NCBI RefSeq assembly: GCF_030068615.1
Contig: NZ_JASJOC010000002.1
Coordinates: 434,001 to 498,000 of the forward strand
Length of the DNA stretch: 64,000 nucleotides
Direction: 5' to 3'
From: Halostagnicola sp. A-GB9-2
GTDB taxonomy: Archaea; Halobacteriota; Halobacteria; Halobacteriales; Natrialbaceae
Shown: positions 41,899 through 62,022 of the stretch, in pieces
Layout of the letters: each line of letters starts with the position of its first letter
Position numbering within the stretch: position 1 is the stretch's first letter
Program-made: the position numbers and the translations under genes
The notes under the pieces: generated by a model
Database searches by the model: none
The model's input: the letters and a program-made list of their open reading frames with translations, nothing else
Told to the model about the DNA's origin: nothing

Positions 41899-43347
41899 AT
41901 GCTGACCGGGTGGCACTATCGAGTGACGAGCGCCGTTGGTGTGATTCTCCTCTCGAGCACCGCTGTCCTCCTCGCTAACCACTCATTTGCACAGCACCTC
42001 TTTGCGACGTACGTTCCGGTGTTTAATCGATTAGACGTGGTGACGCTGACCGGAGGGTCGCTGGTGTGGGCCGTTCTGTTTTGCTCTGCTGTCATGTTCT
42101 GCTGTCTTATTCCGCTGTACAAACCTCGACCACGCCGAGCCCTCGAAACAATTTTTCTCACCCACAAACGCGTGATAACTGGTGGACTGGTGATGGCGAC
42201 GTTCGGGTTTTTCAACTGGTCTCACAGGTTGCCTCGAGCGACGCTCGTGATGACCGTCGGGTTGCTAACGTTATTGCTGCCGATCTGGTTCGTTCGGACG
42301 CGTAACCGCCCGAACGGGCATCCGGGTCGAACGCTCGTGGTCGGTGACGACCCAGACCAGATCAAACAAATCACACCGCAACTCGATACCCCGGTGCTCG
42401 GGTATCTCTGTCCGACTAACGTCCTCGCATCGCGGCTGACCGATAGTGGGGAACGCGAACGGCTAGCGATGGCCTCCGATGGTGGCGTGCGAGGGGTTGA
42501 CAATTCCGCCGGCGAGTCCGGTACGCTGGACGATCTTCGTCATATCGGCGGCCTCTCGAGAACTGAGGACGTATTGGTCGACTACGACATCGATACGGTC
42601 ATACTGGCGTTTCACCAGCCCGATCGGGCGGAGTTCTTCGGGGCGCTTGACACCTGTTTCGAGCATGGGGTCGATGCGAAAGTTCACCGCGAATACGTCG
42701 ACAGCGTGTTGGTTTCGGACGGCGACATCGGCGAGTTAGTGGACGTGGACCTCGAGCCGTGGGATCCGCAGGATTACCTGTTCAAACGGATCTTCGACGT
42801 GACGTTCGCTGTCGTCGGAATCGTCCTCTTCGCCCCGCTGATGGCGATCATCGCACTCGCGGTCGCGCTGGACAGTCGCGGACCGGTGTTGTACACGCAA
42901 GATCGGACGGCTGGCTTCGGCGAGACGTTCACGGTGACGAAGTTTCGGACGATGGAACTGGCCGGGGAAGCCGTGACACCTTCTGCGGACGGAGAGAACG
43001 ATCGAATCACTCGAATCGGACGGGTTCTCCGGAAGACGCACCTGGACGAACTGCCACAGCTGGTGGCGATTTTATTGGGGCGAATGAGCGTCGTCGGGCC
43101 GAGGGCGACCTGGACCGACGAGGAAAAAGTTCTCGAGCAGCAGACGGCTTCCTGGCGCAAACGCTGGTTCGTCAAACCCGGATTGACGGGATTGGCACAA
43201 ATAAACGACGCGAAGAGCACGGAGCCGGACAAGAAGCTCCGCTACGACCTCGAGTACATTCGCCGCCAGTCGTTCAGATTCGATCTGCAGATAGTTATCC
43301 GACAGGTATGGAAAGTCTTCGTCGATACGCTGCAGACGATTCGATAG
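41899..43347 (+). CDS. polyprenyl-phosphate sugar-1-phosphate transferase (WbaP/WcaJ type)
   Basis: This 482-residue bacterial-type initiating transferase has four or five N-terminal spans (about 5-135), a nucleotide-binding-like middle (GRTLVVGDDPDQI) and a C-terminal catalytic domain. That domain has KRIFDVTFAVVGIVLFAPLM, the GPVLYTQDRTAGFGETFTVTKFRTM stretch, the LDELPQL motif, MSVVGPR and KPGLTGLAQI. It should attach a sugar-phosphate to dolichyl or similar phosphate and so begin lipid-linked glycan assembly. Full-length and intact. Confidence 0.9.
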   Translation: MLTGWHYRVTSAVGVILLSSTAVLLANHSFAQHLFATYVPVFNRLDVVTLTGGSLVWAVLFCSAVMFCCLIPLYKPRPRRALETIFLTHKRVITGGLVMATFGFFNWSHRLPRATLVMTVGLLTLLLPIWFVRTRNRPNGHPGRTLVVGDDPDQIKQITPQLDTPVLGYLCPTNVLASRLTDSGERERLAMASDGGVRGVDNSAGESGTLDDLRHIGGLSRTEDVLVDYDIDTVILAFHQPDRAEFFGALDTCFEHGVDAKVHREYVDSVLVSDGDIGELVDVDLEPWDPQDYLFKRIFDVTFAVVGIVLFAPLMAIIALAVALDSRGPVLYTQDRTAGFGETFTVTKFRTMELAGEAVTPSADGENDRITRIGRVLRKTHLDELPQLVAILLGRMSVVGPRATWTDEEKVLEQQTASWRKRWFVKPGLTGLAQINDAKSTEPDKKLRYDLEYIRRQSFRFDLQIVIRQVWKVFVDTLQTIR

Positions 43348-43485
43348 GCCGTGCCCGTCGACGGCGCTCGAACCCGCAGTAACAGACGTTTACGGAGACC
43401 CGTAACGGTCTCCGGGAACACGGACAGATCGTCTGATAGCTGTTTCGGACTGAATAACATAATACCGACTCGGGAATACCTACTC

Positions 43486-43992
43486 ATGCGGATTTTGCGC
43501 GTGGCGCAGAAGAGTTATCCCGACGCGAACGGTGGCGGTCCCTACCACGCCCACGCGATGAGTCGAGACCAGGCGAAGATGGGTCACGACGTAACCGTGG
43601 TGACGGCTCGGACGGATCCCGAGCGACAAGCCGCCGAGTTGGGTATCGACGACGACGTGAATTTTCTCGGTCACGTGCCGTACGACGAGATGCAGGCGGT
43701 GTACCGGAGCGGCAAGGTTCTGGTGTTACCGAGTCGGTCCGAGGGGGTTCCACGATCGGTCCTCGCGGCGATCGCATCGGGTGTCCCGGCCGTGTGCTCT
43801 CGGCTCACCCAGCTTCGTGAACTCCTGGAGGGGCGAGAAGCGTTAGTCGGCACGGAATCCGGATCAGCTTTCGCGGAGAGTCTCGAGGAGTGGATCGCGT
43901 TCGATCGGCCCGTCGAACCGGTGGACGAACGGTACGCGTGGGACAGCACGGTCGATCAAGCGACTGATCACCTGAAGGTGATCGCTCACTAA
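43486..43992 (+). pseudogene. family 4 glycosyltransferase with large in-frame internal deletion
   Basis: This 168-residue frame begins like a complete GT4 (MRILRVAQKSYPDANGGGPYHAHAM...GHDVTVVTA) but passes directly from about residue 52 into the C-terminal UDP-sugar domain (GIDDDVNFLGHVPYDEMQAVYRSGKVLVLPSRSEGVPRSVLAAIASGVP). Roughly 180-200 residues of the N- and inter-domain region, including much of the acceptor site, are missing compared with usual 360-400-residue members. No stop or frameshift is present, so a short protein might still be made. I infer a non-functional deletion derivative. Confidence 0.75.
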
Positions 43993-43999
43993 CGCGACC

Positions 44000-45205
44000 A
44001 TGAACTACTCTTCCCTACTCGCTCGGTTTCGGTCGCACTGGTTCGGTTCTGGGTCACAAAACCGCACGTCTGCTCGTACTCAACGGGTCGGCGAAGGCGA
44101 CAGCACGACGCCGTCGACCCTCCCATCGCGGTCGCGAGATGAAACGAATAAAACGTCGTTGGTGTATATAATCAACGCCCTTCACACGGGCGGTGCAGAG
44201 GTCGGCATGTGCCGGTTGCTCAACGGGCTAAGCGAAGACAAATACGAAATAACGGTTGTGACTCTCATCGGGTACGAGGAGGCGTTCGTCCGGCAACGGA
44301 TCCCCGAGGCGACGATACTCGATTGTAAACAGATCCGGAGTCTGGACGATATTTCGCGGCTGGTATCGACCATCGCTAACGCGAACGTTATCATCGGGTC
44401 GCTCTATCATTCCGTGCTCGTCGCTCGACTCGCCGGAATCGTCAACCGGCAGGCGACGGTCGCTACCTGGCAGCACAACGAACGGTTCAAGACGCCGTTG
44501 CGAAAACGAATCGTCGGGACGACGAGTCTCTTGAGCGACGTGGCACTCGCAGACTCCGAACCCGTCGCGGAGATGCTTTGCGAAGAGTTGGACCTCCCCT
44601 CTGAAACCGTTAAAACGCTCCCGATCGCCGGCATCTCGTTGAGCGAGTTCCAGGCCAGAACTCACCACAACAGCGATGACATAGTCGTCGGGAGCGTCGG
44701 CGTCCTCTCCGGGCAAAAGAATTACGCTACCTTGCTCACCGTCGCCGACGAACTCGCTGGCGAGGATATCACGTTCCAAATCGCCGGTGACGGTCCGAAG
44801 CGGAGCGAACTCGAGCGTCAAATAGAATCACTGGGTATCGATAATGTCGAACTGCTCGGTCGAGTCGATGATCTGCCCGAGTTCCTTCAGTCGATCGACG
44901 TTTACGTCCAACCTTCTCACTACGAGGGGCTCTGTATAACCGTCGTCGAAGCGATGGCCGCAGGCCTTCCGGTCGTTGCGAGCGCGGTCGGGGGAATCAA
45001 CTACACCGTAACTGAGCGCAAGAACGGGTTCCTGCACGACCCAACCGATATCGCGGGCTTTTGCGACTCAATTCGAGAACTGGCCGAAGACCCCTCGAAG
45101 CGGGAACGGTTTGGCAAACGAGGCCGAAACATCGTCGAAAACCGCTATACGCAGGACGTGTTCGTCGAACGGTTCGAACGAGCGATCCACGAGGGAGTCG
45201 TATGA
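44000..45205 (+). CDS. family 4 glycosyltransferase
   Basis: This 401-residue GT-B enzyme has an N-domain from about residue 53 (LVYIINALHTGGAEVGMCRLLNGL) and a C-domain with VGSVGVLSGQKNYATLL, QIAGDGPKRSELE, VELLGRVDDLPEFLQSIDVYVQPSHYEGLCITVVEAMAAGLPVVAS. The last holds the E-x7-E nucleotide-sugar motif. The first 50 residues are low-complexity, and translation could start later. It lies eight bases after the deleted GT4, so they share a transcript. Donor sugar unknown. Confidence 0.9.
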   Translation: MNYSSLLARFRSHWFGSGSQNRTSARTQRVGEGDSTTPSTLPSRSRDETNKTSLVYIINALHTGGAEVGMCRLLNGLSEDKYEITVVTLIGYEEAFVRQRIPEATILDCKQIRSLDDISRLVSTIANANVIIGSLYHSVLVARLAGIVNRQATVATWQHNERFKTPLRKRIVGTTSLLSDVALADSEPVAEMLCEELDLPSETVKTLPIAGISLSEFQARTHHNSDDIVVGSVGVLSGQKNYATLLTVADELAGEDITFQIAGDGPKRSELERQIESLGIDNVELLGRVDDLPEFLQSIDVYVQPSHYEGLCITVVEAMAAGLPVVASAVGGINYTVTERKNGFLHDPTDIAGFCDSIRELAEDPSKRERFGKRGRNIVENRYTQDVFVERFERAIHEGVV

Positions 45206-46936: not shown

Positions 46937-47884
46937 ATGAGCAAAGCGGAACTGGTCACCGTCGTCGTTCCGACGTACGATCGACCGAAACTGCTCCGCC
47001 GAGCTGTACAGACCGTCGCCGAGCAGACGTACGATCGAATCGAACTCGTAATCGTCGACGACTGTTCACCGGTTCCCGCTTCCGACGTGCTCTCCGAATT
47101 CGACCCGTCGCTCGAGGCAGTCACAATCGTCCGTCACGATGCGAATCGGGGTGCGAACGTGGCGCGCAATACCGGACTTCACAAAGCACGTGGCGAGTAC
47201 GTCGCGTTCCTCGACGATGATGACTGCTGGGACGAACGAAAAATCGAGAAGCAGGCAAACGCCTTCGGAAGAGCACCGGAATCCGTCGGCGTCGTCTACA
47301 CGGGCGTCGAACACGTCGACGAAAACATGCAGACGAACGCCGTCCTCACTCCACAAGTCGAGGGAGCGGTGACGAAACGATTGTTGTACGGGAACTTCCT
47401 CGAGACGTTTTCGGTCGCGATGATCGAGCGTGAACTCTGTGAACGCGTCGGTGGGCTGGACGAGCGATTTCCGAGCTGGCAGGACTGGGAATTTTTCCTC
47501 CGGCTGTCGTTGTGGTGTCGTTTTCTCGCCGTTCCCGAACCGCTCGTCGTTCGTCACAACCGACCGAACGGACAGCTCAGTCACGATTACGACCGAAAAA
47601 CCGAGGTGACGGCCCCGCTATTTCGAGAGGTGGTTCGACCGATCGCAGCGGAGCTCGACGACATCGACTGGACGACGGTAGACGCCTCCCTCGAGTACCA
47701 CCTCGGCCGGGCCGCGATGCGAAATGGTCGGTACAGCGCTGCCCGACGCCATTTCGGGCGAGCGATCCGTCAGCACCCGCTCGAAGTACCGTACTACGTC
47801 TACCTGGTAGCCGCCTTTGGGGGAAAGCGAACCCATCGGCCGATTCAGCGGATAAAACGGCGACTGGTACGGTACGGTCAATAA
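46937..47884 (+). CDS. family 2 glycosyltransferase
   Basis: This 315-residue GT-A enzyme begins ELVTVVVPTYDRPKLLRRAVQTV and has VIVDDCSP, the metal-binding DDDD near EYVAFLDDDDCWDERKI, and later SWQDWEFFLRLSLWCRF with the typical (Q/E)DW motif. It adds a nucleotide-activated sugar to a growing lipid-linked glycan. The final 80 residues are Arg-rich and may bind membrane or partners. Confidence 0.9.
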   Translation: MSKAELVTVVVPTYDRPKLLRRAVQTVAEQTYDRIELVIVDDCSPVPASDVLSEFDPSLEAVTIVRHDANRGANVARNTGLHKARGEYVAFLDDDDCWDERKIEKQANAFGRAPESVGVVYTGVEHVDENMQTNAVLTPQVEGAVTKRLLYGNFLETFSVAMIERELCERVGGLDERFPSWQDWEFFLRLSLWCRFLAVPEPLVVRHNRPNGQLSHDYDRKTEVTAPLFREVVRPIAAELDDIDWTTVDASLEYHLGRAAMRNGRYSAARRHFGRAIRQHPLEVPYYVYLVAAFGGKRTHRPIQRIKRRLVRYGQ

Positions 47885-48106: not shown

Positions 48107-49270
48107 ATGTCCAGAACAGTCGGCCACTTTGTCGGATCTTACCTCCCCCTGACGGAGACATTCATCTATCAGTATCTGTCGAATTACGAACGATACGAAC
48201 CGTTCGTTTGTGGGAAGGATGCCCGGAATCTGGATCTGTTTCCGTTCGAACCGCGGTACCTCTTCTTCGAGTTGCCCCAGTGGAGTCCCCGGTTTTGGCT
48301 GTACGGTGGCCTTGCAAAACTCAACCTCCGCGGACTCACCCAGACGTACTATCGACACGTGGCCAAAAAAACCGACCCCGATATCATCCACGCGAACTTC
48401 GGCCCGAATGCGGTGGGACTCCTCCAGCACCGATCACCGGAACGCCCTCTGGTTACAACCTTCCACGGCTACGACATTTCTGAACTGGTCCATCGGAACG
48501 ACTCGATGAGACGCCAGTACGAGCGCCTCTTCGAGACGGGCGATCTCTTTCTCGTCGAGGGGCCATCCATGCGCGAGAAACTGCTCTCGTTGGGGTGTCC
48601 GAAGGAAAAAATCGGTCTCCAGCGCATCGCGATCGATACGGACCGAATCACTCCCGACTATCCCGAGCCAAACGGCGAGTGGCGAATTCTCACCGCCGGG
48701 AGATTCACCGAGAAGAAGGGAATTCCCGACGGTATCGAAGCGTTCGCCGACGCGTTCGCTCGAGAGTCGGGTGCCGAACTTCGGATCGTCGGCGGGGAAT
48801 CCGATGATGCGGAAACGAACTCGGGTGAATGTACGCAAGCGGAACTCGAGGAAATCGCGAGCCGGAGAGGAGTTCGCGATCAGGTCACGTTCACCGGCTT
48901 TCTCGAGTACGAGGAGTATCTCGCGGAGATTCAACACTGCGATCTGGTGTTGGCTCCCAGTAAACGGGCAGAATCCGGCGACTCCGAGGGTGGAGCGCCG
49001 ACCGTCCTGTTGGAAGCACAGGCCAGCGGCAAGCCCGTCGTGTCCACGACTCACGCTGATATTCCCTACATCGTCGAAGACGGCGCTGCTGGGCGACTCG
49101 TGACACCGGGTGCCGTCGACGAACTCGCCGACGCCCTCCAGTGGTGTCGAGCCAACGAGGACGAACTCGAGGAGATGGGGCGTGTCGGTCGCGATAACGT
49201 GGCTCGCGATCACGATATCCAGAAGTTGATCGACCAGCTCGAACGCCGATACGACGAACTGTTAGCGTAG
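48107..49270 (+). CDS. family 4 glycosyltransferase (WcaL-like)
   Basis: This 387-residue protein begins TVGHFVGSYLPLTETFIYQYLSNY, the family start in colanic-acid WcaL-type enzymes. It has IIHANFGPNAVG, TTFHGYDIS, WRILTAGRFTEKKGI, VTFTGFLEYEEY, LAPSKRAESGDSEGGAPTVLLEAQASGKPVVST with the E-x7-E type nucleotide-sugar motif. Full-length. The next gene starts three bases after its stop, implying coupled expression with the first member of the GDWD family described next. Confidence 0.9.
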   Translation: MSRTVGHFVGSYLPLTETFIYQYLSNYERYEPFVCGKDARNLDLFPFEPRYLFFELPQWSPRFWLYGGLAKLNLRGLTQTYYRHVAKKTDPDIIHANFGPNAVGLLQHRSPERPLVTTFHGYDISELVHRNDSMRRQYERLFETGDLFLVEGPSMREKLLSLGCPKEKIGLQRIAIDTDRITPDYPEPNGEWRILTAGRFTEKKGIPDGIEAFADAFARESGAELRIVGGESDDAETNSGECTQAELEEIASRRGVRDQVTFTGFLEYEEYLAEIQHCDLVLAPSKRAESGDSEGGAPTVLLEAQASGKPVVSTTHADIPYIVEDGAAGRLVTPGAVDELADALQWCRANEDELEEMGRVGRDNVARDHDIQKLIDQLERRYDELLA

Positions 49271-49272
49271 AG

Positions 49273-50133
49273 ATGCTCGGCACTATCGACAGAGCGTACG
49301 AAAAATTACAGAACGACGGATCGATCCCGCTACTACACTCAGTCGCGAACCATCTGCAGGATGCTGGACGGATGTACGCCCGCGACACGTATCAACGGGT
49401 ACGGTTTAGAGCCCGCTACGGATCGGCTGCACCCGAACCGTATCGCTTGATTCACGTCGATCCGGCTACCGTCGAACACATACTATCCCCGAGGTTTTAT
49501 TCGAATATCGGGACGTACGGGACGTACGTGCTGGGCGGGGACTGGGATATCGCTCGAGTCGACGACTATCTGCCGTTCTACGAGGACGTCGAAGCTGTAT
49601 ACGGTCACCGAGCTGTTTTCAGACTCGAGAACTACGAACTTTACCACCTCCTGGTCGAACGGTTCGAGAACCGCACGCCGTGGGAGGAGACCGAATTCTA
49701 CGCCAGATACGCATCATTGGCTGAGGAAGAGCGCTGGGACTCACAACGATACGGTCCGGAGAACATCCACGAGCGGTTCCAGTACCTCGATGACCTGTAC
49801 GAACGCATGAGCGACGGAGGCTACCGCACTCAAAGGGAGTTAGTGAGCCACCCAACGGGTCTCAAACCGCCAGAGGTCGACGAAGTGATACTTTGCATCG
49901 GAAGGGACGGGACGCTTATCCAGGGCGGCGCAGGTCAACATCGGCTAATGCTGTCGAAAATTTTAGATATCCCTCGAATACCCGTTCGGGTGTTCGTCAG
50001 GCACGAAAAATGGCAACGTCTACGCAAGAAGGTCGCTGATCACGACGCGAGTGAGAGAAGCGCCGAAATCGAGCGCTATTCCTCGCACCCCGACGTCCGT
50101 CACCTGAATGGGTCCTGTAGCGATGGTCGGTAG
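49273..50133 (+). CDS. GDWD-family protein, copy A (unrecognised family)
   Basis: This 286-residue soluble protein is one of three paralogues here. Conserved blocks are G-D-W-D (89-92), WEETEFY (137-143), a Y-L-D-D-L-Y segment with a following G-G-Y-R-T-Q (171-187), IGRDG (209-213), GQHRL (221-225), a hydrophobic IPVRV strand, VRHEKWQRLR (242-251) and HPD (272-274). The block IGRDG...GQHRL...IPVRV resembles the ParB/sulfiredoxin-like fold signature (D-G-x-H-R, then a V-P-V strand), which includes kinases and nucleases. No signal peptide or span is present. Its translation is tied to the WcaL-like gene, so a glycan-related role is inferred. Confidence 0.75.
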   Translation: MLGTIDRAYEKLQNDGSIPLLHSVANHLQDAGRMYARDTYQRVRFRARYGSAAPEPYRLIHVDPATVEHILSPRFYSNIGTYGTYVLGGDWDIARVDDYLPFYEDVEAVYGHRAVFRLENYELYHLLVERFENRTPWEETEFYARYASLAEEERWDSQRYGPENIHERFQYLDDLYERMSDGGYRTQRELVSHPTGLKPPEVDEVILCIGRDGTLIQGGAGQHRLMLSKILDIPRIPVRVFVRHEKWQRLRKKVADHDASERSAEIERYSSHPDVRHLNGSCSDGR

Positions 50134-50235
50134 GTGTATAGTGGGCCGGTATTAGCTTGTTGGCGGGTTGTATCGGATCGTTAGTGGATCGTTTAGAGAG
50201 AATAGCTTTCAACGAAGAGGTACCACACCCTCGAT

Positions 50236-50997
50236 ATGGCGCTCCGATTGGTGGCGAGGGCGAGGAAGATTCTCAGAGAGGAGGGTCCAATTCCGTTGAT
50301 ACGTTCCTCGAGTCGATACACGATGTCCCGAATCACCAGAGAGATTCTCAGGGCCAAATACGCGATGCGGTACAAAGCGCTAGCGCCCACGCCGACCGAA
50401 ACAGTGTCTATCGATCCGAAACGAATCGATTACAGTCTCGGATCGAGACACGTTCCCAAGGGATCACCACAGTTCGGTGTCTTGTCGGGTGATTGGGACC
50501 TTCAAAAAACGCACTGGCGGGAAGGGAATTCGAGTTGGGAAGAATTGAGAGAACGGTTCGAAGCCGGAAAAGCGTGGGAAGAGACGGAATATTACCGAAC
50601 TGCCGTCCGGAAGTTACGATCGGGACAGTCCCTCGGACGACTAGACGGACCACAAACTGTCGACAACTTCCGTACCTATCTCGAGGAGTTAGACGCCTTA
50701 TATGAAAACGTCGCGGCTAACGGGTACGACGATTCTTCAGTTATCACCGTGAGTATAGGGAGAAGGGGGGAGTGGATGGTGAACCACGGAAATCACCGAC
50801 GAACGGTCGCGCGACTCTTAGATGTCGAATCAGTCCCCGTCCGAATACGGTATCGACATCGGCGGTGGCAGCACATCAGAGAGCAATTTTATCGCACCGA
50901 TTCGCTCGACAGTCTGAACGTACCGGAACGGTACATCGACCACCCAGACATTCCTCGAGACGAGCCGAAAATAGGTGACAAAGTTGAGGTCGAGTAA
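50236..50997 (+). CDS. GDWD-family protein, copy B
   Basis: This 253-residue paralogue of copies A and C has G-D-W-D (85-88), WEETEYY (114-120), L-D-A-L-Y with A-N-G-Y (152-164), IGRRG (174-178), GNHRR (185-189), V-P-V-R-I (200-204), YRHRRWQHIR (206-215) and HPD (236-238). It is about 30 residues shorter in the section between GDWD and WEETE. The catalytic-looking His of G-N-H-R is kept. The Arg-rich N-terminus (KILREEGPIPLIRS) aligns with KLQNDGSIPLLHS in copy A. It is 100 bases downstream of copy A. Confidence 0.75.
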   Translation: MALRLVARARKILREEGPIPLIRSSSRYTMSRITREILRAKYAMRYKALAPTPTETVSIDPKRIDYSLGSRHVPKGSPQFGVLSGDWDLQKTHWREGNSSWEELRERFEAGKAWEETEYYRTAVRKLRSGQSLGRLDGPQTVDNFRTYLEELDALYENVAANGYDDSSVITVSIGRRGEWMVNHGNHRRTVARLLDVESVPVRIRYRHRRWQHIREQFYRTDSLDSLNVPERYIDHPDIPRDEPKIGDKVEVE

Positions 50998-51199
50998 CGA
51001 AGGTGAGCTTTCGCACTTCCTAACGCCGAAGATTCACCGCTCTTCGGATTTTCCAACCGCGGACGCTGTACGAATAAGTCGAGCCGGTTGACGGTGGTCG
51101 TTGCGTACTTTCAAAGCCGCTTCGCGTGCCGTTCGACTTGAGGGTAAGCGGGTTCGAACGGCTATCAGTACGTTACTTTTTCGAAATGGTGAAAAATGA

Positions 51200-51207
51200 T
51201 TTATGTA
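51200..51207 (+). promoter_or_regulatory. TATA-like element of copy C
   Basis: TTTATGTA at 51200-51207 sits 24 bases before the ATG at 51231, in an AT-rich island that contrasts with GC-rich surroundings. The spacing suits a leaderless transcript, which supports the start at 51231 and shows that copy C may have its own promoter. Confidence 0.5.
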
Positions 51208-51230
51208 TTACGTTGATCTCTGGCAGAGTA

Positions 51231-52091
51231 ATGCCGACGCCGCCAGCTCGATTACCACGTCGCGCCTTCACTATTTTCCGTTCGAAGGGAGCTCTTTCTC
51301 TCGTACATTCTGGCCTCAGATACGCGAACAGCGCACTCGAGATACCCGCGACAAAATTGCGTCACGTCCGATACGACCTCCGCTGGAACGACAGTTCACC
51401 CGAACCGTATCGGCTGCTGTGGATCGACCCGGATGAAATCGAGTACCTGATCGTCCCGTCGATCAAGGACGATCTGATAAACAGGGGGACACACGTCATC
51501 GACGGGGACTGGGACGGGACGATCGTCGATACGTCGTTCGCGACTTACAAGGAATTAGTCGACCGAATGGACGGCGACCTACCCGTTCTGGCCCCCTTCT
51601 CGAGGTACGGCTTCTATCGAGCGATACGCTCGTACCTTCTCGAGGGAGAAGACTGGACCGAAACCGAGTACTACCAGTCTCAGCGGACATCGGGCGTATC
51701 GGCGTCGAAGTTAGAGCGCTACCGGCGCTCGGTCGACGACCTCTACGACTCGATCGTCACCAACGGGTACAAAACCCAGGCTGAGCTTCCGGAATCGGCG
51801 CGAGTGATGAAAGAAGGGCCGCCTGAGTACGATGAAATTCGGGTAAACATCGCTCGGGACGGCACCTTCGTGTTGGACGATTGTAGAAATAGACTCTCGA
51901 TAGCGAAACTACTGGAACTGGACGAGGTCCCCGTTCGCGTCCTCGTTCGTCACAAACGCTGGCAAGAGATCCGAGAAACCGTAGCGACCGTCGATCACGC
52001 GGACGAATTGTCGGACGAGATGACGCGGTTACTCGATCATCCCGATTTACAGGACGTCATTAGCGAGTCCGCGACAGCCACCGGTAAGTGA
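51231..52091 (+). CDS. GDWD-family protein, copy C (His changed to Asn)
   Basis: This 286-residue paralogue has G-D-W-D (92-95), WTETEYY (142-148), V-D-D-L-Y with T-N-G-Y-K-T-Q (168-183), IARDG (207-211), CRNRL (218-222), VPVRVLVRHKRWQEIR (233-248) and HPD (270-272). Where copies A and B have G-Q/N-H-R, it has C-R-N-R, so the central His is replaced by Asn and it may be catalytically altered. I start at 51231 (MPTPPARLPRRAF) because from there it aligns with copy A over its whole length; a longer frame from 51126 would place the start before the TATA element. The three copies are diverged, not a recent duplication. Confidence 0.75.
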   Translation: MPTPPARLPRRAFTIFRSKGALSLVHSGLRYANSALEIPATKLRHVRYDLRWNDSSPEPYRLLWIDPDEIEYLIVPSIKDDLINRGTHVIDGDWDGTIVDTSFATYKELVDRMDGDLPVLAPFSRYGFYRAIRSYLLEGEDWTETEYYQSQRTSGVSASKLERYRRSVDDLYDSIVTNGYKTQAELPESARVMKEGPPEYDEIRVNIARDGTFVLDDCRNRLSIAKLLELDEVPVRVLVRHKRWQEIRETVATVDHADELSDEMTRLLDHPDLQDVISESATATGK

Positions 52092-52360: not shown

Positions 52361-53311
52361 ATGACCGTTCTCGTCACGGGTGGCGTCGGCTATCTCGGAT
52401 CGCGGCTGATTAGGGAACTCCCGGATCATCCAGCGTTCGCCGGCGATCGGATCCGGATTCTCGATAACCTTCGCCAACCGCGATATCACTCCCTCTGGGA
52501 CCTGCCCGCCCACGCTGAGTACGAGTTCGTCGAAGGCGATGTCCGCGACCTCGAGACGGTCGAATCGATCATGGAAGGGGTCGACACTGTTTTCCATCTC
52601 GCCGCTATCACGAACGCCACGGAAACGTTCGACATCCCGGAAAAGACGTGGGAGGTCAACTACGATGCAACGATGGACATCTACCGAACGGCTCGAGACG
52701 CGGGCGTCGACGATTTCGTGAACGTCTCGTCGTGTTCGGTCTACGGGCCGACCGACGAGGAAATCGAGGAGGACTTCGACTGCGAACCGGAATCCCCGTA
52801 CGGAAAGGCGAAATTGGCGGCGGAACAAGAACTGCTAGAACAGTACGAGGGGGAGCTGTCGGTGACCGCACTTCGCCTCGGAACGGTATACGGCTGGTCG
52901 ACCGGGATGCGGTTCGACACCGTCGTCGACAAATTCTCGTATCTCGCGGCGACGGGCCAACCCCTGACGGTGTACGAGGGGGCGGAAAACCAGAAACGAC
53001 CGTACCTTCACGTCGGAGACGCCGTCGAGTCGATGCTGTTCGCTTCAACGAACCTCGGCGACGGAGAGGCGTACAACGTCGTGGGACAGAACGGGAGGCT
53101 TCGCGATATCGTCGACGCGATAGAACGATACTTTCCGGGCGTCGAAATCGGCTACACCGAAGCCGAACAGCTCAACCAACTCTCCTACGTCGTTTCGGAC
53201 CAAAAGATTCGAGAGGAGGGCTTCGAGACGACGTATTCGATCGACCAGGGAGTCAGGGAACTCGCTGATCGGTTTCGGGTGCTCGCTCGTACGCAGATGA
53301 CGAGTGATTGA
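52361..53311 (+). CDS. NAD-dependent epimerase/dehydratase (extended SDR)
   Basis: This 316-residue protein has the Rossmann motif VTGGVGYLGSRL at the start, NVSSCSVYG and catalytic Y147-x3-K151 in SPYGKAKLAAEQ. The usual sugar-nucleotide domain follows, with the conserved R in ENQKRPYLHVGD. It probably epimerises or dehydrates an NDP-hexose for the glycan locus. The last codons (R-T-Q-M-T-S-D-stop) lie inside the first unit of a 24-base tandem repeat, so the present C-terminus may be set by the repeat expansion. Confidence 0.9.
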   Translation: MTVLVTGGVGYLGSRLIRELPDHPAFAGDRIRILDNLRQPRYHSLWDLPAHAEYEFVEGDVRDLETVESIMEGVDTVFHLAAITNATETFDIPEKTWEVNYDATMDIYRTARDAGVDDFVNVSSCSVYGPTDEEIEEDFDCEPESPYGKAKLAAEQELLEQYEGELSVTALRLGTVYGWSTGMRFDTVVDKFSYLAATGQPLTVYEGAENQKRPYLHVGDAVESMLFASTNLGDGEAYNVVGQNGRLRDIVDAIERYFPGVEIGYTEAEQLNQLSYVVSDQKIREEGFETTYSIDQGVRELADRFRVLARTQMTSD

Positions 53312-53540: not shown

Positions 53541-53589
53541 CCTGAAGCACGAGGCTAGGTTTATCACAGGAGCTGTGGACAGCCAGACC

Positions 53590-54663
53590 ATGAAAGGCGT
53601 GCTGTTAGCGGGAGGGAGAGGGACGAGGCTGCGTCCGATCACGAATACCAGACCGAAGCAGCTCGTCCCGGTCGCTAACTCCCCGGTGATTCAGTACGGC
53701 ATAGAGGCGTTTCGGGAGGCGGGAATTACCGAAATCGGCGTCGTTCTGGGCAACAAAGGCCGTGAGCGCATACAGCGGTTTCTGGGCGACGGTTCGGAGT
53801 TCGGTGTCGACATCACCTACATCGTCCAGGGCAATCCGCTCGGCCTCTCCCACGCCGTGGGCTGTGCGAGAGCGTTCGTCGGGAGCGACGACTTTGTCCT
53901 GTACCTCGGCGACAACATCTTCGAGGACGATCTCTCCGAACTCGTAACGGGGTTTGCGAACAGCGAGGCGGTTGCAAGCGTCGCACTCGGGAACGTCGAC
54001 AACCCACAACGGTTCGGCGTCGCGGACGTGGACGACCAGCGGAACGTGACTCGAGTGGTCGAGAAACCCGACGACCCGCCGAGTTCCCTGGCCGTACTCG
54101 GCGTGTACGCGTTCTCGCGGGAGGTTTTCGATGCAATAGAACGCCTGGAACCGTCCTGGCGCGGCGAACTCGAAATAACGGACGCCATCCAGCTTCTGCT
54201 CGAGGACGGACTCACGATCCGGTCACACGTCGTCGACGGATGGTGGATGGACGTCGGGAAACCAGAAGACGTCCTCGAAGCGAATCGTCACCTCCTCGAA
54301 ACGAACGGACCCGCTCGGGCCGACGAACGAGTCGACGAATCCGAAATACCGGACGGCGTCGAGGTTCACGAATCAGCGACTGTCGAAGACGGCACCGTCC
54401 TTCGAGGCCCAATTTCGATCGCCGGTGACACCACAATCGGCGATGGTGCATCCATCGGCCCCTATACCTCGATCGGCCCGGGAACGACCGTTCGGAACGC
54501 CCACATCGAGAACAGCGTGATCATCGGGGACTCGAAAATCACGACCGAAAACGAGGTCGTTAACAGCCTGCTCGGGCGCGGGTCAACGGTGAAAAGTGCG
54601 AACGGTATGCCCGCCGACAGTCCACGATTGACCGTCGGGGAGAACTCGATCATCACACTCTGA
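53590..54663 (+). CDS. glucose-1-phosphate thymidylyltransferase-like nucleotidyltransferase with hexapeptide domain
   Basis: This 357-residue protein begins KGVLLAGGRGTRLRPITNTRPKQLVPVANSPVIQYGIEAF, the nucleotidyltransferase signature. It has LGDNIFEDDL (metal Asp) and VEKPDDPPSSLAVLGVYAF, then a C-terminal left-handed beta-helix of hexapeptide repeats (VHESATVEDGTVLRGPISIAGDTTIGDGASIGPYTSIGPGT). This is the archaeal RmlA-like long form that makes dTDP- or UDP-glucose. It supplies nucleotide sugars for the epimerase and transferases. Start MKGVLL at 53590. Confidence 0.92.
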   Translation: MKGVLLAGGRGTRLRPITNTRPKQLVPVANSPVIQYGIEAFREAGITEIGVVLGNKGRERIQRFLGDGSEFGVDITYIVQGNPLGLSHAVGCARAFVGSDDFVLYLGDNIFEDDLSELVTGFANSEAVASVALGNVDNPQRFGVADVDDQRNVTRVVEKPDDPPSSLAVLGVYAFSREVFDAIERLEPSWRGELEITDAIQLLLEDGLTIRSHVVDGWWMDVGKPEDVLEANRHLLETNGPARADERVDESEIPDGVEVHESATVEDGTVLRGPISIAGDTTIGDGASIGPYTSIGPGTTVRNAHIENSVIIGDSKITTENEVVNSLLGRGSTVKSANGMPADSPRLTVGENSIITL

Positions 54664-55012: not shown

Positions 55013-55750
55013 ATGTCCGATTCGAGGCAGACGTGGAGGGGCAACGTGGACGAGTATTACTCTCACGACGGCGCTCTCGACAAATACGCCGCCCTCGCGG
55101 AGGAAGGGTTGTTCGATCAGGAAAAGACGGTCGTCGATCGGTATTTCACCGGGGACGGTGCGAGCGTGTTGGACCTCGGATGCGGCGCGGGGAGAACGAC
55201 GCAGGCACTCGTGAGCCGCGGATTCGACGTCGTCGGCGTCGACGTTAGCGAACCGATGATCCGAAAATCCAGCTCGCTGTTTCCCGACCTCGAGGTTCGA
55301 GTGGGCGACGCCACCGACCTCTCCTTCGAGACCTCCACGTTCGATTACGTTCTCTTTTCGTTCAACGGCCTCGACGACATCACGCCGGAGACGGGGCGGT
55401 ACGCGGCGCTGGCAGAAATTCGTCGCGTGTTGAAACCGGGCGGGACGTTCGCGTTTAGTTCCCGAAATTCGTTGTACTATACTCTCCTTCGAGCGCGGCC
55501 GTTTTCCCCGGGGACATGGGTCGAGTTGGCGAATTTCTGGGCGAAAAACCGTTCTACGAAGAACGCTCTGTCGAACTACAAATCGGACGACCACGAGTTC
55601 GGGAGCGGCGACGCCTACTACAGTACTCCGCTCCATCAGAAACGCCAACTCATCAACTGCGATTACGAGCCCGTCGACGTTATCAAGAAAGAGGACAGCT
55701 TTTCGGTCTATACCGATCCGTGGCCGTACTACGTGGCGAAAACGCTCTAG
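55013..55750 (+). CDS. class I SAM-dependent methyltransferase
   Basis: This 245-residue enzyme has motif I VLDLGCGAGRTTQAL, motif II VVGVDVSEPMI, VGDATDLSFETSTFDYVLFSFNGLDDI and motif IV/V region VLKPGGTFAFSSRNSLYYTLL. Substrate is unknown; in this locus methylation of a glycan sugar is plausible. It is the last plus-strand gene before the convergent minus-strand glycan genes. Confidence 0.9.
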   Translation: MSDSRQTWRGNVDEYYSHDGALDKYAALAEEGLFDQEKTVVDRYFTGDGASVLDLGCGAGRTTQALVSRGFDVVGVDVSEPMIRKSSSLFPDLEVRVGDATDLSFETSTFDYVLFSFNGLDDITPETGRYAALAEIRRVLKPGGTFAFSSRNSLYYTLLRARPFSPGTWVELANFWAKNRSTKNALSNYKSDDHEFGSGDAYYSTPLHQKRQLINCDYEPVDVIKKEDSFSVYTDPWPYYVAKTL

Positions 55751-59553: not shown

Positions 59554-62022
59554 TCATTCAAATTCGACGACTTCCCCGTCGAGAACGGCAGTTTCATCCA
59601 CGGTCACTTCCGTCCCGTCGACCGCGTAGTCGCCAGCGTACGGGACGACGACCTCGAGTTCCCCGTCGTCTCCGACGTCGACTTCCCGCTCGTACTCGAC
59701 GGTTTCCCCGTCGACCTCCACTTCGGTACTCACCGTGACGTGGTCGGTCGCCTCGACGGGTCCTTCGAGCGTCGCACCCGGAACGATCGCGAACGCCGTC
59801 GCGTCGTCGTCAGCGTAGAGTAGTTTGTAGTGTTCGAGCCCGTCATTTTCGTGGCCGCCTGCGCCGAGTTCCTCGTGCAGTGTTGCCTGTGCGGAACCGT
59901 CCGGAGACTCCCCAGCAGAATCGGTCAAGACGACGTAACCGACATCGTCGTCCTCGAACTGGTCGTACCAGCCGTCCGGATCGTCGTCGGTTCGGAACTC
60001 CTGGAAGTTTCTGTCGGCGTAGCTGTACCCGTCAGCGTGTCCGTTGACGAAGTAGTTGTGCATCCGATTGTCGCCCCACTGACTCAGCACGTAACTCTCG
60101 GGATACTCTCGGTCGACGTCCTCGGCGTGCTCGGCGATCGCGATCGTCGCCTCGACTTGCGCGTCGTCGTAGGCCGTCTGTGCGGCAAACGACGGCGCGA
60201 AGACCAGGCTCATCCCGCAGATAATCAGCCCGATCAGGGCCAGGTGAGCTACCGTCGAGAGGTCACGCGGCAGGACGATAGACGGTTTTTTCGTTCCACC
60301 GTCGGCGGTGAGGTCGCGCCTTCTCCGTTCGGTCGTTTCATCACGCTCGCGAAACGGCGCCGGGAGGCGACCGACATCGAGCCACGCGATCAGATACACG
60401 AGTCCGAAGCCGCCGAGCACGGAGAGCGGTACCGCCAACTGCGCCGCGAATCGAACCTGGAACGTAGCCATCGCAAGCCAGAACGCGACGTACGTCGAAA
60501 GCAACAACCAGGCCGGCTCGTACCGTCGATACGCGATCCAACAGGCCCACCCCAACACGACGACTGCGACGTAAAATTGAACGCCGAGTTGCGCCAACGG
60601 CCCCTGAACCACCGCTTGATCCAACGCGAACAGCGACGCCGTTTCAGTCGCACCCTCCCTGAAAACGACGTCGTCGGCACGGGCCCGAAGGGTCGCCCAG
60701 TTCTCCGGGCGCAGATAACTGAACGCGAGTACACTACCAGCAACCAACACGCCCTCGAGGCCGACTAATCTTCCGACAGGCCACTCGAGACGCCGCCAGA
60801 GTTCGCCGAGCCCGATCACGCCGAGGGCTCCGGCGAAGACGAGCATCGGAATAATCGCGATGAACGAGTCGTGCCAGCCCCAGCGAACGTGTAAGCTGGC
60901 GGAACACACGCCCGCGATAAGAAGCCCAAGCACCACCGGCGCGTTCGCGAGCGCGGGCGAGAGATCCGCTCGCGCATCCATGGCGACTTTGAAGCCGACG
61001 TAGGCTGCGGCCGGGATGAACAGCAACACCGAGCCACCCCACGTGTGTGCGGAGACGGTCAGCGCGATCCCCAGGACGACCGCCGCGACCCACGTCCAGG
61101 GCGACCGGAGGTGAGCGCGGATCGCAGGAGAGAGGCCCGGGATCCGCGAGGAAGTCCGTTGTTCCGTCCGAGACTCTCGACAAGACTCGAGATCGACGGC
61201 GAGCCAAGCCAGAGTGACCAGAGTCACCCCGAGCCAGAGATACTGATGCGGGCGATGCTCGAGGAAGCCGATTCCGGAGTAGACAGCGTGAATCGGGGTC
61301 AGTGCAAGCAAGATGACTGACGCGACGCCGACGCGAACGTCGTCGGTGACGACGATCGCGAGCCAGTACACGACGACCCCGAGGACGAGTGCCATCGCGA
61401 CCGGTAACCAGGCGGCGACTACGTCCGCCGCCCACTGACCGCCGCCCCCCAGTTCCGCAAAAAACCAGTTCGCGGCGTGCGTGAACGGTCGCGTGTCTGC
61501 GGCCCGGTCTGGCATGTCAGCGATCACGCCGAAATCCGTTACGCCGTCAGACTCGCTCAACAACTCCTCCATCCAGTGGCGATAGTAGTAGGGATCGTTC
61601 TCCGGCGAGACGACCTCTCCACCTTGAAACACGGATTGGTAGTTCACGATCCGCATGAAGAACAGAACCACGAGCGCGCCGCCCAGGGCCAGCGCGGCCC
61701 GCGGATCGAACGCGATCGGGGCCCGCAGTTCGAATCCATTGTCGTTTTCGCTACCGTCGCCGACCACCTCCTCCCCCTCGAGTCCAGCTCGAACCCCCGT
61801 GCGATTCGAAACCCGGTACTCGCCGTCGATCTTGGTCACGAGGCCTCGAGAGACCAGTTCGCCGAAGGTCCCCGAATCGACGGGCAGGTCGTCGAACACC
61901 CACGTCTCGTGCTCGTCGTCGACGGTGAGGAGCGTCTCGAGCGTCTCTTCGCCGTCGACGCGCTCCTCACGGAAGGTGGCTGCCGCGGTGGCAACCTCGG
62001 CGGGGCCCGGATCCTCGGCCAT
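59554..62022 (-). CDS. STT3/AglB-like oligosaccharyltransferase with N-terminal winged-helix-like extension
   Basis: This 822-residue protein has about 12 spans and a large C-terminal outside domain. The N-terminal STT3 acidic/Tyr motif ENDPYYYRHW occurs at 141-150. The usual WWDYG is replaced by Q-W-G-D-N (648-652) in VLSQWGDNRMHNYFVNG, and the tail is a beta-domain. Residues 1-100 precede the first span and look like a small winged-helix-type soluble domain (ETLLTVDDEHETWVFDDL, GTFGELVSRGLVTKIDGEYRV). It should transfer lipid-linked glycan to protein Asn. I remember a similar variant motif in other haloarchaeal AglB-like proteins but did not check it. Confidence 0.85.
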   Translation of the reverse strand: MAEDPGPAEVATAAATFREERVDGEETLETLLTVDDEHETWVFDDLPVDSGTFGELVSRGLVTKIDGEYRVSNRTGVRAGLEGEEVVGDGSENDNGFELRAPIAFDPRAALALGGALVVLFFMRIVNYQSVFQGGEVVSPENDPYYYRHWMEELLSESDGVTDFGVIADMPDRAADTRPFTHAANWFFAELGGGGQWAADVVAAWLPVAMALVLGVVVYWLAIVVTDDVRVGVASVILLALTPIHAVYSGIGFLEHRPHQYLWLGVTLVTLAWLAVDLESCRESRTEQRTSSRIPGLSPAIRAHLRSPWTWVAAVVLGIALTVSAHTWGGSVLLFIPAAAYVGFKVAMDARADLSPALANAPVVLGLLIAGVCSASLHVRWGWHDSFIAIIPMLVFAGALGVIGLGELWRRLEWPVGRLVGLEGVLVAGSVLAFSYLRPENWATLRARADDVVFREGATETASLFALDQAVVQGPLAQLGVQFYVAVVVLGWACWIAYRRYEPAWLLLSTYVAFWLAMATFQVRFAAQLAVPLSVLGGFGLVYLIAWLDVGRLPAPFRERDETTERRRRDLTADGGTKKPSIVLPRDLSTVAHLALIGLIICGMSLVFAPSFAAQTAYDDAQVEATIAIAEHAEDVDREYPESYVLSQWGDNRMHNYFVNGHADGYSYADRNFQEFRTDDDPDGWYDQFEDDDVGYVVLTDSAGESPDGSAQATLHEELGAGGHENDGLEHYKLLYADDDATAFAIVPGATLEGPVEATDHVTVSTEVEVDGETVEYEREVDVGDDGELEVVVPYAGDYAVDGTEVTVDETAVLDGEVVEFE

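Follow-up and report, generated by a model that had tools for sequence, protein, structure and literature searches.

ParB/sulfiredoxin-like proteins of haloarchaeal surface-glycan loci, candidate glycan phosphotransferases with relatives fused to a WbdD-type methyltransferase

Introduction

The O antigen of Escherichia coli O9/O9a is capped by WbdD, which adds a phosphate to the terminal mannose and then a methyl group to that phosphate (PMC3482155). Methylation was abolished by each of the substitutions Y16F, H132A, H133A, and R203A, and H132, H133, and R203 are missing from the O8 homologue, a hydroxyl-methylating enzyme (PMC3482155). The ParB fold, best known for chromosome partition, includes a few enzymes (SerK, SbnI, and sulfiredoxin [Srx]); SerK, the archaeal ADP-dependent serine kinase, is a small-molecule kinase (PMC5120207). 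Here, we analyzed three adjacent genes (copies A, B, and C) in a 64,000-nucleotide stretch of Halostagnicola sp. A-GB9-2 (contig NZ_JASJOC010000002.1, positions 434,001 to 498,000), hereafter the window, whose positions are used throughout. We propose, with a probability of about 45%, that their products are nucleoside triphosphate (NTP)-binding glycan phosphotransferases (kinases) of the ParB/Srx fold, in which the ParB/Srx domain replaces the kinase of WbdD. The proposal builds on a predicted fold, on bacterial and Asgard relatives that are fused to a WbdD-type methyltransferase, and on the gene context of the family.

Sequence relations and predicted fold

Copies A, B, and C are three intact open reading frames (ORFs), exactly where a first-pass annotation of the window had placed three tandem genes (Table 1). 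They are diverged paralogues of 27–33% identity, and pairwise BLASTP gave 33% for A and C (E 2e-43), 28% for B and C (E 4e-28), and 27% for A and B (E 1e-25); their homology is far beyond chance. Two stretches, about 33 residues in total, are missing from copy B, and a GTG at 51126 is a possible alternative start of copy C that would add 35 amino acids (aa). Among the motifs that the annotation ascribed to all three copies, GDWD, W-E/T-E-T-E, I-G/A-R-x-G, and R-H-x-x-W-Q stood in the alignment. The motif G-Q/N-H-R holds in A (GQHR) and B (GNHR) but not in C, which has CRNR, and VPVR is not common to every copy, A having IPVR.

The annotation had recognised no family, and our profile searches agree. 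A–C matched no Pfam or NCBIfam family, known and unrelated ones included, and the ParBc profile PF02195 was unmatched even at E up to 10; 32 relatives likewise gave no Pfam or NCBIfam family, with PF02195 unmatched at E up to 1. SerK and SbnI were among the best subthreshold NCBIfam matches, and the cut-offs of their models (NF053625 and NF033589) were not reached, the best E in the 32 members being 0.15. Neither a helix-turn-helix (HTH) nor a C-terminal dimerisation domain, both features of canonical ParB, was matched by Pfam or NCBIfam in A–C or the 32 members.

The ParB/Srx-like fold that the annotation had suggested is supported but not proven: independent methods agree and the GxxR motif is nearly invariant, although each score alone is weak and none is significant. 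The AlphaFold2 model of copy A, calculated from an 82-sequence alignment, has a predicted local distance difference test (pLDDT) score of 90.3 and a predicted template modelling score of 0.87. Down to rank 39, Foldseek against the PDB retrieved hardly anything but Noc, Srx, KorB, ParB, PadC, and SbnI; the best E was only 0.046, so the individual match is weak. Structural alignment with VIA-align gave a Z score of 4.8 for Srx (85 residues, root-mean-square deviation 4.5) and 4.7 for Noc and ParB, with SerK and SbnI lower, and the named matches in a viral structure library were mostly ParB/sulfiredoxin. HHalign aligned the family with an archaeal SerK-like ParB-CBS profile at 95% probability across the GxHR motif. 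Plain phmmer against the PDB was uninformative, and the family profile found only SbnI there (E 0.76).

In the alignment of 82 members (A5), the P motif (Box II, GxxR; defined in PMC12704722) retains its Gly in 80/82 and its Arg in 82/82, whereas H244 is present in all 82 and D92 in 80. Other ParB-fold proteins no longer bound nucleotide after an Arg-to-Ala change in the GxxR motif (PMC12704722), and A–C are predicted to bind a nucleotide at this loop. Compared with ParB and Srx, the family is extended by two helices at the N terminus, by an insert of about 70 residues (about residues 93–160) that bears GDWD and W-x-E-T, and by an RH..W..HPD stretch at the C terminus.

Fusion to a WbdD-type methyltransferase

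In eight members, from bacteria and Lokiarchaeota, the protein runs on into a C-terminal class I S-adenosylmethionine (SAM) methyltransferase. WbdD had been proposed as an analogue before the structure search was made. The predicted model of one fusion, from Nealsonbacteria (L116), has a pLDDT of 92.6. For its methyltransferase part, WbdD was the best match in VIA (Z 18.7–18.9, 190 residues, 21% identity; the next other protein, Z 17.8 and 15% identity) and occupied ranks 2, 4, 5, 6, and 10 in Foldseek. A profile of the eight fused methyltransferase domains also placed WbdD first in the PDB (E 5.5e-7; next, 2e-5), and HHalign of these domains with WbdD of E. coli HS gave 96.9%.

With the E. 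coli HS gene (L236) as the reference, Y16, R36, H132, H133, and R203 of WbdD are identical in 8/8 fusions, and D82 is replaced by Glu in all. The same eight fusions defined this residue set; seven fusions outside the defining set (L220 and L229–L234) keep all of its residues, 7/7. Eight distinct methyltransferases that are unrelated to the fusions all lacked the complete set, although some of them aligned poorly. The similarity to WbdD did not extend to its kinase: no protein-kinase family matched A–C or the fusions, and the partner domain of the methyltransferase is ParB/Srx-like.

Window copies A–C are without a methyltransferase domain. Stand-alone members have an HPD(L) tail (residues 272–274 in copy A) that matches the fusion linker LYQPxxHPDL, and this linker aligns with the Y16-Q and HPEW stretch of WbdD. 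Fusions may have given rise to the stand-alone members, or the two types may have an element for substrate contact in common. A single candidate for a separate fusion-type methyltransferase beside a haloarchaeal member (L045:3166-3978) is 17% identical, lacks H132, and was not counted. Near a fusion of Pseudomonadota, L241:12165-13232 reads like a Stealth-type sugar-phosphate transferase, which is another hint of phosphate in that glycan.

Genomic context

The family is concentrated in surface-glycan loci. Genes for GT4 and GT2 glycosyltransferases, sugar transferases, flippases, and nucleotidyltransferases were counted around family loci and around random regions of the same genomes, with queries taken from the window except for the flippase, which came from family locus L151 (on the same plasmid as test locus L063). 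Such genes lie within 9 kb at 31/40 family loci versus 1/34 random regions (Fisher p = 1.4e-11), and within 4 kb at 24/40 versus 0/34. By class, GT2 was found at 16 loci, flippases at 18, and epimerases at 17, each against none of the 34 controls. The five family copies of the Halostagnicola genome are all in glycan loci (5/5). Clustered neighbours that could be named by Pfam are GT4, GT2, flippase, epimerase, nucleotidyltransferase, ABC transporter, sulfatase, ATP-grasp, and GlmS, and in annotated Halobaculum records a Gfo/Idh/MocA oxidoreductase lies immediately upstream of the family gene. Bacterial members adjoin GT2, GT4, GT8, GT9-like, and Kdo/WaaP kinase genes, and Asgard members lie in sugar-nucleotide and GT4 loci, as assigned by reading. 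The recurrent glycosyltransferase neighbours anticipated in the first-pass annotation are thus present, and homologues scattered away from glycan genes were not the pattern seen. A specific tie to N-glycosylation, tested through AglB, was not significant (3/40 loci versus 0/34).

This context bears on two readings in which the protein would not modify a glycan. A DNA-related ParB-like protein (nuclease, partition, or defence) could be present in glycan islands fortuitously or as cargo; it would suit the ParB/Srx fold, glycan loci are recombination hot spots, and PADLOC gave weak scores. We disfavour this explanation as very improbable, because Asgard archaea and bacteria of several phyla share the enrichment, the family has fusions to a WbdD-type methyltransferase, and no HTH domain was recognised. 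Assignment to a PADLOC defence family was rejected, the scores (PD-Lambda-5_A, 0.004; mad2 on the methyltransferase part of L116) being weak or driven by the methyltransferase.

Alternatively, the ParB/Srx domain could be not an enzyme but a regulator or clamp of the glycan machinery that senses, or is gated by, a nucleotide; it would bind NTP, interact with glycosyltransferases or the export proteins, and set the chain length. NTP switching is the best-known role of the ParB fold (PMC12704722), members often adjoin flippases, ABC exporters, and glycosyltransferases, and the C-terminal region of WbdD recruits a glycosyltransferase. We nevertheless consider a regulator unlikely. The large GDWD/W-x-E-T insertion and the invariant RH suggest a substrate site, several diverged paralogues per locus suit acceptor-specific enzymes better, and the WbdD-type fusions imply phosphate chemistry; neither an HTH nor a dimerisation domain was recognised.

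A third possibility concerns the acceptor. SerK and SbnI are ParB-fold kinases of free serine (PMC5120207; PMC12704722), and the family could likewise act not on the glycan but on a small precursor (a polyol, a sugar, or an amino acid such as serine), phosphorylating it before a nucleotidyltransferase activates it and a CDP-alcohol or sugar-phosphate transferase transfers it. Nucleotidyltransferases lie near 10/40 family loci versus 0/34 controls, and four loci (L068, L070, L072, and L113) share an overlapping operon of DUF7475, the family gene, and a CDP-alcohol phosphatidyltransferase. This operon is confined to one subclade, and the WbdD-type methyltransferase acts on glycan-attached phosphate, not on sugar monophosphates (PMC3482155); we rate a precursor kinase below even the binding module considered in the next section.

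The small gene beside the CDP-alcohol transferase was considered as a cytidylyltransferase and rejected, as it is DUF7475. The same four loci (~9–15 kb; parts in L127) also hold genes for a zinc alcohol dehydrogenase, a 6-pyruvoyl-tetrahydropterin-synthase-like protein, a glycosyltransferase-like protein, and a methyltransferase, and the cluster is possibly an unrecognised glycolipid pathway.

Proposed function

Here, we propose a function for A, B, and C on the basis of these comparisons. They would be cytoplasmic enzymes acting in surface-glycan assembly. The nucleotide would be held by the GxxR loop, and its phosphate would be moved to a hydroxyl group of a lipid-linked sugar chain or a glycan precursor, with the paralogues of one locus differing in their acceptors. 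Where the WbdD-type methyltransferase is fused, in bacteria and Asgard archaea, it would go on to methylate this phosphate, and the chain would end in a methyl-phosphate cap like that of the O9a O antigen of E. coli. Haloarchaeal members, having no methyltransferase, would yield a phosphorylated glycan, unless a separate enzyme methylates it. A predicted nucleotide-binding domain with a phosphate-methylating partner in glycan loci most simply supplies the phosphate. That A–C are enzymes, and that the stand-alone haloarchaeal members act as the fused ones do, is presumed in this scheme; phosphotransfer, the acceptor, and the role in capping are predicted from the same comparisons. A search for a link between ParB and inositol kinases returned nothing relevant in the open-access literature. 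The broader idea, that a further unrelated fold serves glycan capping kinases (alone and in multiple acceptor-specific copies in haloarchaea, fused to the WbdD-type methyltransferase in bacteria and Asgard archaea) as an independent invention of the WbdD system, is tentative, and we lean somewhat against it.

Several observations weigh against the phosphotransferase function. Taken singly, the fold scores are weak (E 0.046 and Z 4.8 at best), the Gly of the P loop is lost in copy C (CxxR), and for a catalytic base equivalent to Glu30 of SerK there is only a candidate, D92. Most members have no methyltransferase, the neighbours of haloarchaeal members carry no convincing separate one, and no phosphate-bearing haloarchaeal glycan is cited as a match. 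Six Asgard fusions (L229–L234) have lost GxxR and kept the full methyltransferase signature; in L230–L234 the Arg of the P motif is absent around the former GxxR, with the WbdD-type methyltransferase intact. Beside three of the GxxR-less fusions lies what by eye appears to be a gene for an AP-superfamily phosphodiesterase/phosphotransferase. The loss of GxxR with retention of the methyltransferase implies, for these fusions at least, that the methyltransferase can act in the absence of a nucleotide-binding partner domain, that the phosphate comes from elsewhere, or that the domain only binds the substrate.

The last option leads to a non-catalytic module that binds a glycan or phospho-glycan and presents a glycan phosphorylated elsewhere to the methyltransferase or a transporter. 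The six Asgard fusions fit such a module, as they still have the RH..W residues along with those for phosphate methylation; so do the apparent AP-superfamily genes adjacent to three of them and the sulfatase/AP-type genes that recur beside haloarchaeal members. GxxR is near-invariant elsewhere (Arg in 82/82), which would be needless for mere binding, and another glycan kinase is not obvious at most of the family loci. We regard a pure binding module as quite unlikely and prefer the phosphotransferase function.

Extent and history of the family

A profile built from A, B, and C matched 109 of 292 sampled Halobacteria genomes, in 43/77 genera and with up to eight copies per genome (E <= 1e-5). 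The Halostagnicola genome itself holds two further copies, C1:533138 and C34 (L037:9411-10208, frame intact). Outside Halobacteria the family is sporadic: 8/349 genomes in the phylum of Catenovulum, 9/148 in that of a Lokiarchaeon, and 1/240 in that of a Nealsonbacterium. The loci include those of Halorubrum, Natronorubrum, Haloferax profundi, Nanohaloarchaea, Lokiarchaeota, Desulfobacterales, Azospirillum, and Catenovulum, among others. Members in annotated plasmids are labelled "hypothetical protein". A back-translation search with a single protein (P0001) found no relatives; an alignment of closer relatives did find them. The phage collection contained no match, leaving a phage origin unsupported.

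A tree of 151 members places A and C in a clade of 11 and B in a clade of nine (SH-aLRT 97 each), and the closest relatives of A and B are two different genes in a genome of the same genus (G020). A recent tandem triplication is thereby ruled out, as the first-pass annotation had expected from the divergence of the copies, and A, B, and C are instead long-standing paralogues that have stayed side by side in one locus. The AglB locus of G020 (L038) contains A-, B-, and C-like copies and a broken fourth (L038:10714-11498), and adjacent family pairs occur in L051, L052, L056, L057, L076, L133, and L148 of other genomes. In the last, from Fuchsiella, two family genes (L148:8861-9727 and upstream) follow a gene for a Kdo/WaaP-type lipopolysaccharide kinase and a similar-looking upstream gene.

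The glycan locus of the window

On the 5' side of the copies are a sugar transferase, two GT4, one GT2, and one truncated glycosyltransferase; on the 3' side are an epimerase, a nucleotidyltransferase, a methyltransferase, a FemAB-type protein, and, by reading, a DegT-like and an AglB-type protein (Table 1). Copy A is very probably co-translated with the GT4 gene that ends at 49270. A 213-aa ORF at 43351-43992 appears to join the N terminus of a GT4 straight to its C-terminal third, as in an internally deleted glycosyltransferase.

Table 1. Positions of copies A–C, their motifs, and neighbouring glycan genes in the window
Feature	Position	Strand	Remarks
Polyprenyl-phosphate sugar transferase (Bac_transf, PF02397)	41899..43347	+	
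GT4 glycosyltransferase	44000..45205	+	
GT2 glycosyltransferase	46937..47884	+	
GT4 glycosyltransferase	48107..49270	+	stop 2 bp before copy A
Copy A	49273..50133	+	286 aa, ParB/Srx-like glycan-locus protein
GDWD motif, copy A	49537..49548	+	residues 89-92; W91 and D92 in 80/82 family members
P motif (Box II, GxxR), copy A	49933..49944	+	GQHR, residues 221-224; predicted phosphate-binding loop
Copy B	50236..50997	+	253 aa; other subclade, same family as A
GDWD motif, copy B	50488..50499	+	
P motif, copy B	50788..50799	+	GNHR
Copy C	51231..52091	+	286 aa; subclade common to A; P motif altered to CRNR
GDWD motif, copy C	51504..51515	+	
P motif position, copy C	51882..51893	+	CRNR; Gly to Cys, Arg kept
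NAD-dependent sugar epimerase/dehydratase	52361..53311	+	
Sugar-1-phosphate nucleotidyltransferase	53575..54663	+	
Class I SAM methyltransferase	55013..55750	+	without the WbdD phosphate-methylation signature
AglB-type oligosaccharyltransferase, end of glycan locus	59554..62022	-	by reading; phmmer found homologues in other loci

Comparison with known systems

No description of the family of A–C was found in the open-access literature searched, and one may exist elsewhere. If our proposal is true, a large family devoted to glycans, unseen because profiles miss it, widens the roles of the ParB fold, and a function is given to "hypothetical" proteins of more than one-third of the sampled haloarchaeal genomes. 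Kinase activity would place phosphate on archaeal and bacterial glycans and methyl-phosphate in the species that bear fusions, and archaeal cells would carry undescribed phosphorylated glycans.

Srx is among the best structural matches and has a G-x-H-R loop. The loop of Srx, G-C-H-R, uses a cysteine, whereas that of the family is G-R/Q/N-H/N-R, and a peroxiredoxin context was not seen around the family genes. SerK and SbnI share with the family a GxHR-type P motif, the lack of an HTH, and, as far as the fold of the family is predicted, the ParB/Srx fold. The family lies far under the SerK cut-off, however, and differs in its large insertion, in its GDWD, RH, and HPD motifs, and in a gene context of glycan rather than amino-acid metabolism. 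The methyltransferase fusions of the ParB-CTPase fold (Kaljevic et al. 2025, PMC12704722) also combine a ParB-like domain with a SAM methyltransferase, and some bind ATP; that survey was based on PF02195, which misses the family of A–C, and the word polysaccharide is absent from the portion of the paper that was available. With respect to WbdD, the kinase of the E. coli enzyme has the eukaryotic protein-kinase fold, whereas the fusions have a ParB/Srx-like domain on the N-terminal side, and the window copies differ in having no methyltransferase domain. Like WbdD, the fusions carry a WbdD-type methyltransferase beside a predicted NTP-binding domain and are encoded in glycan loci, and the family would, if the proposal is true, represent a second, unrelated solution to the chain capping that WbdD has solved.

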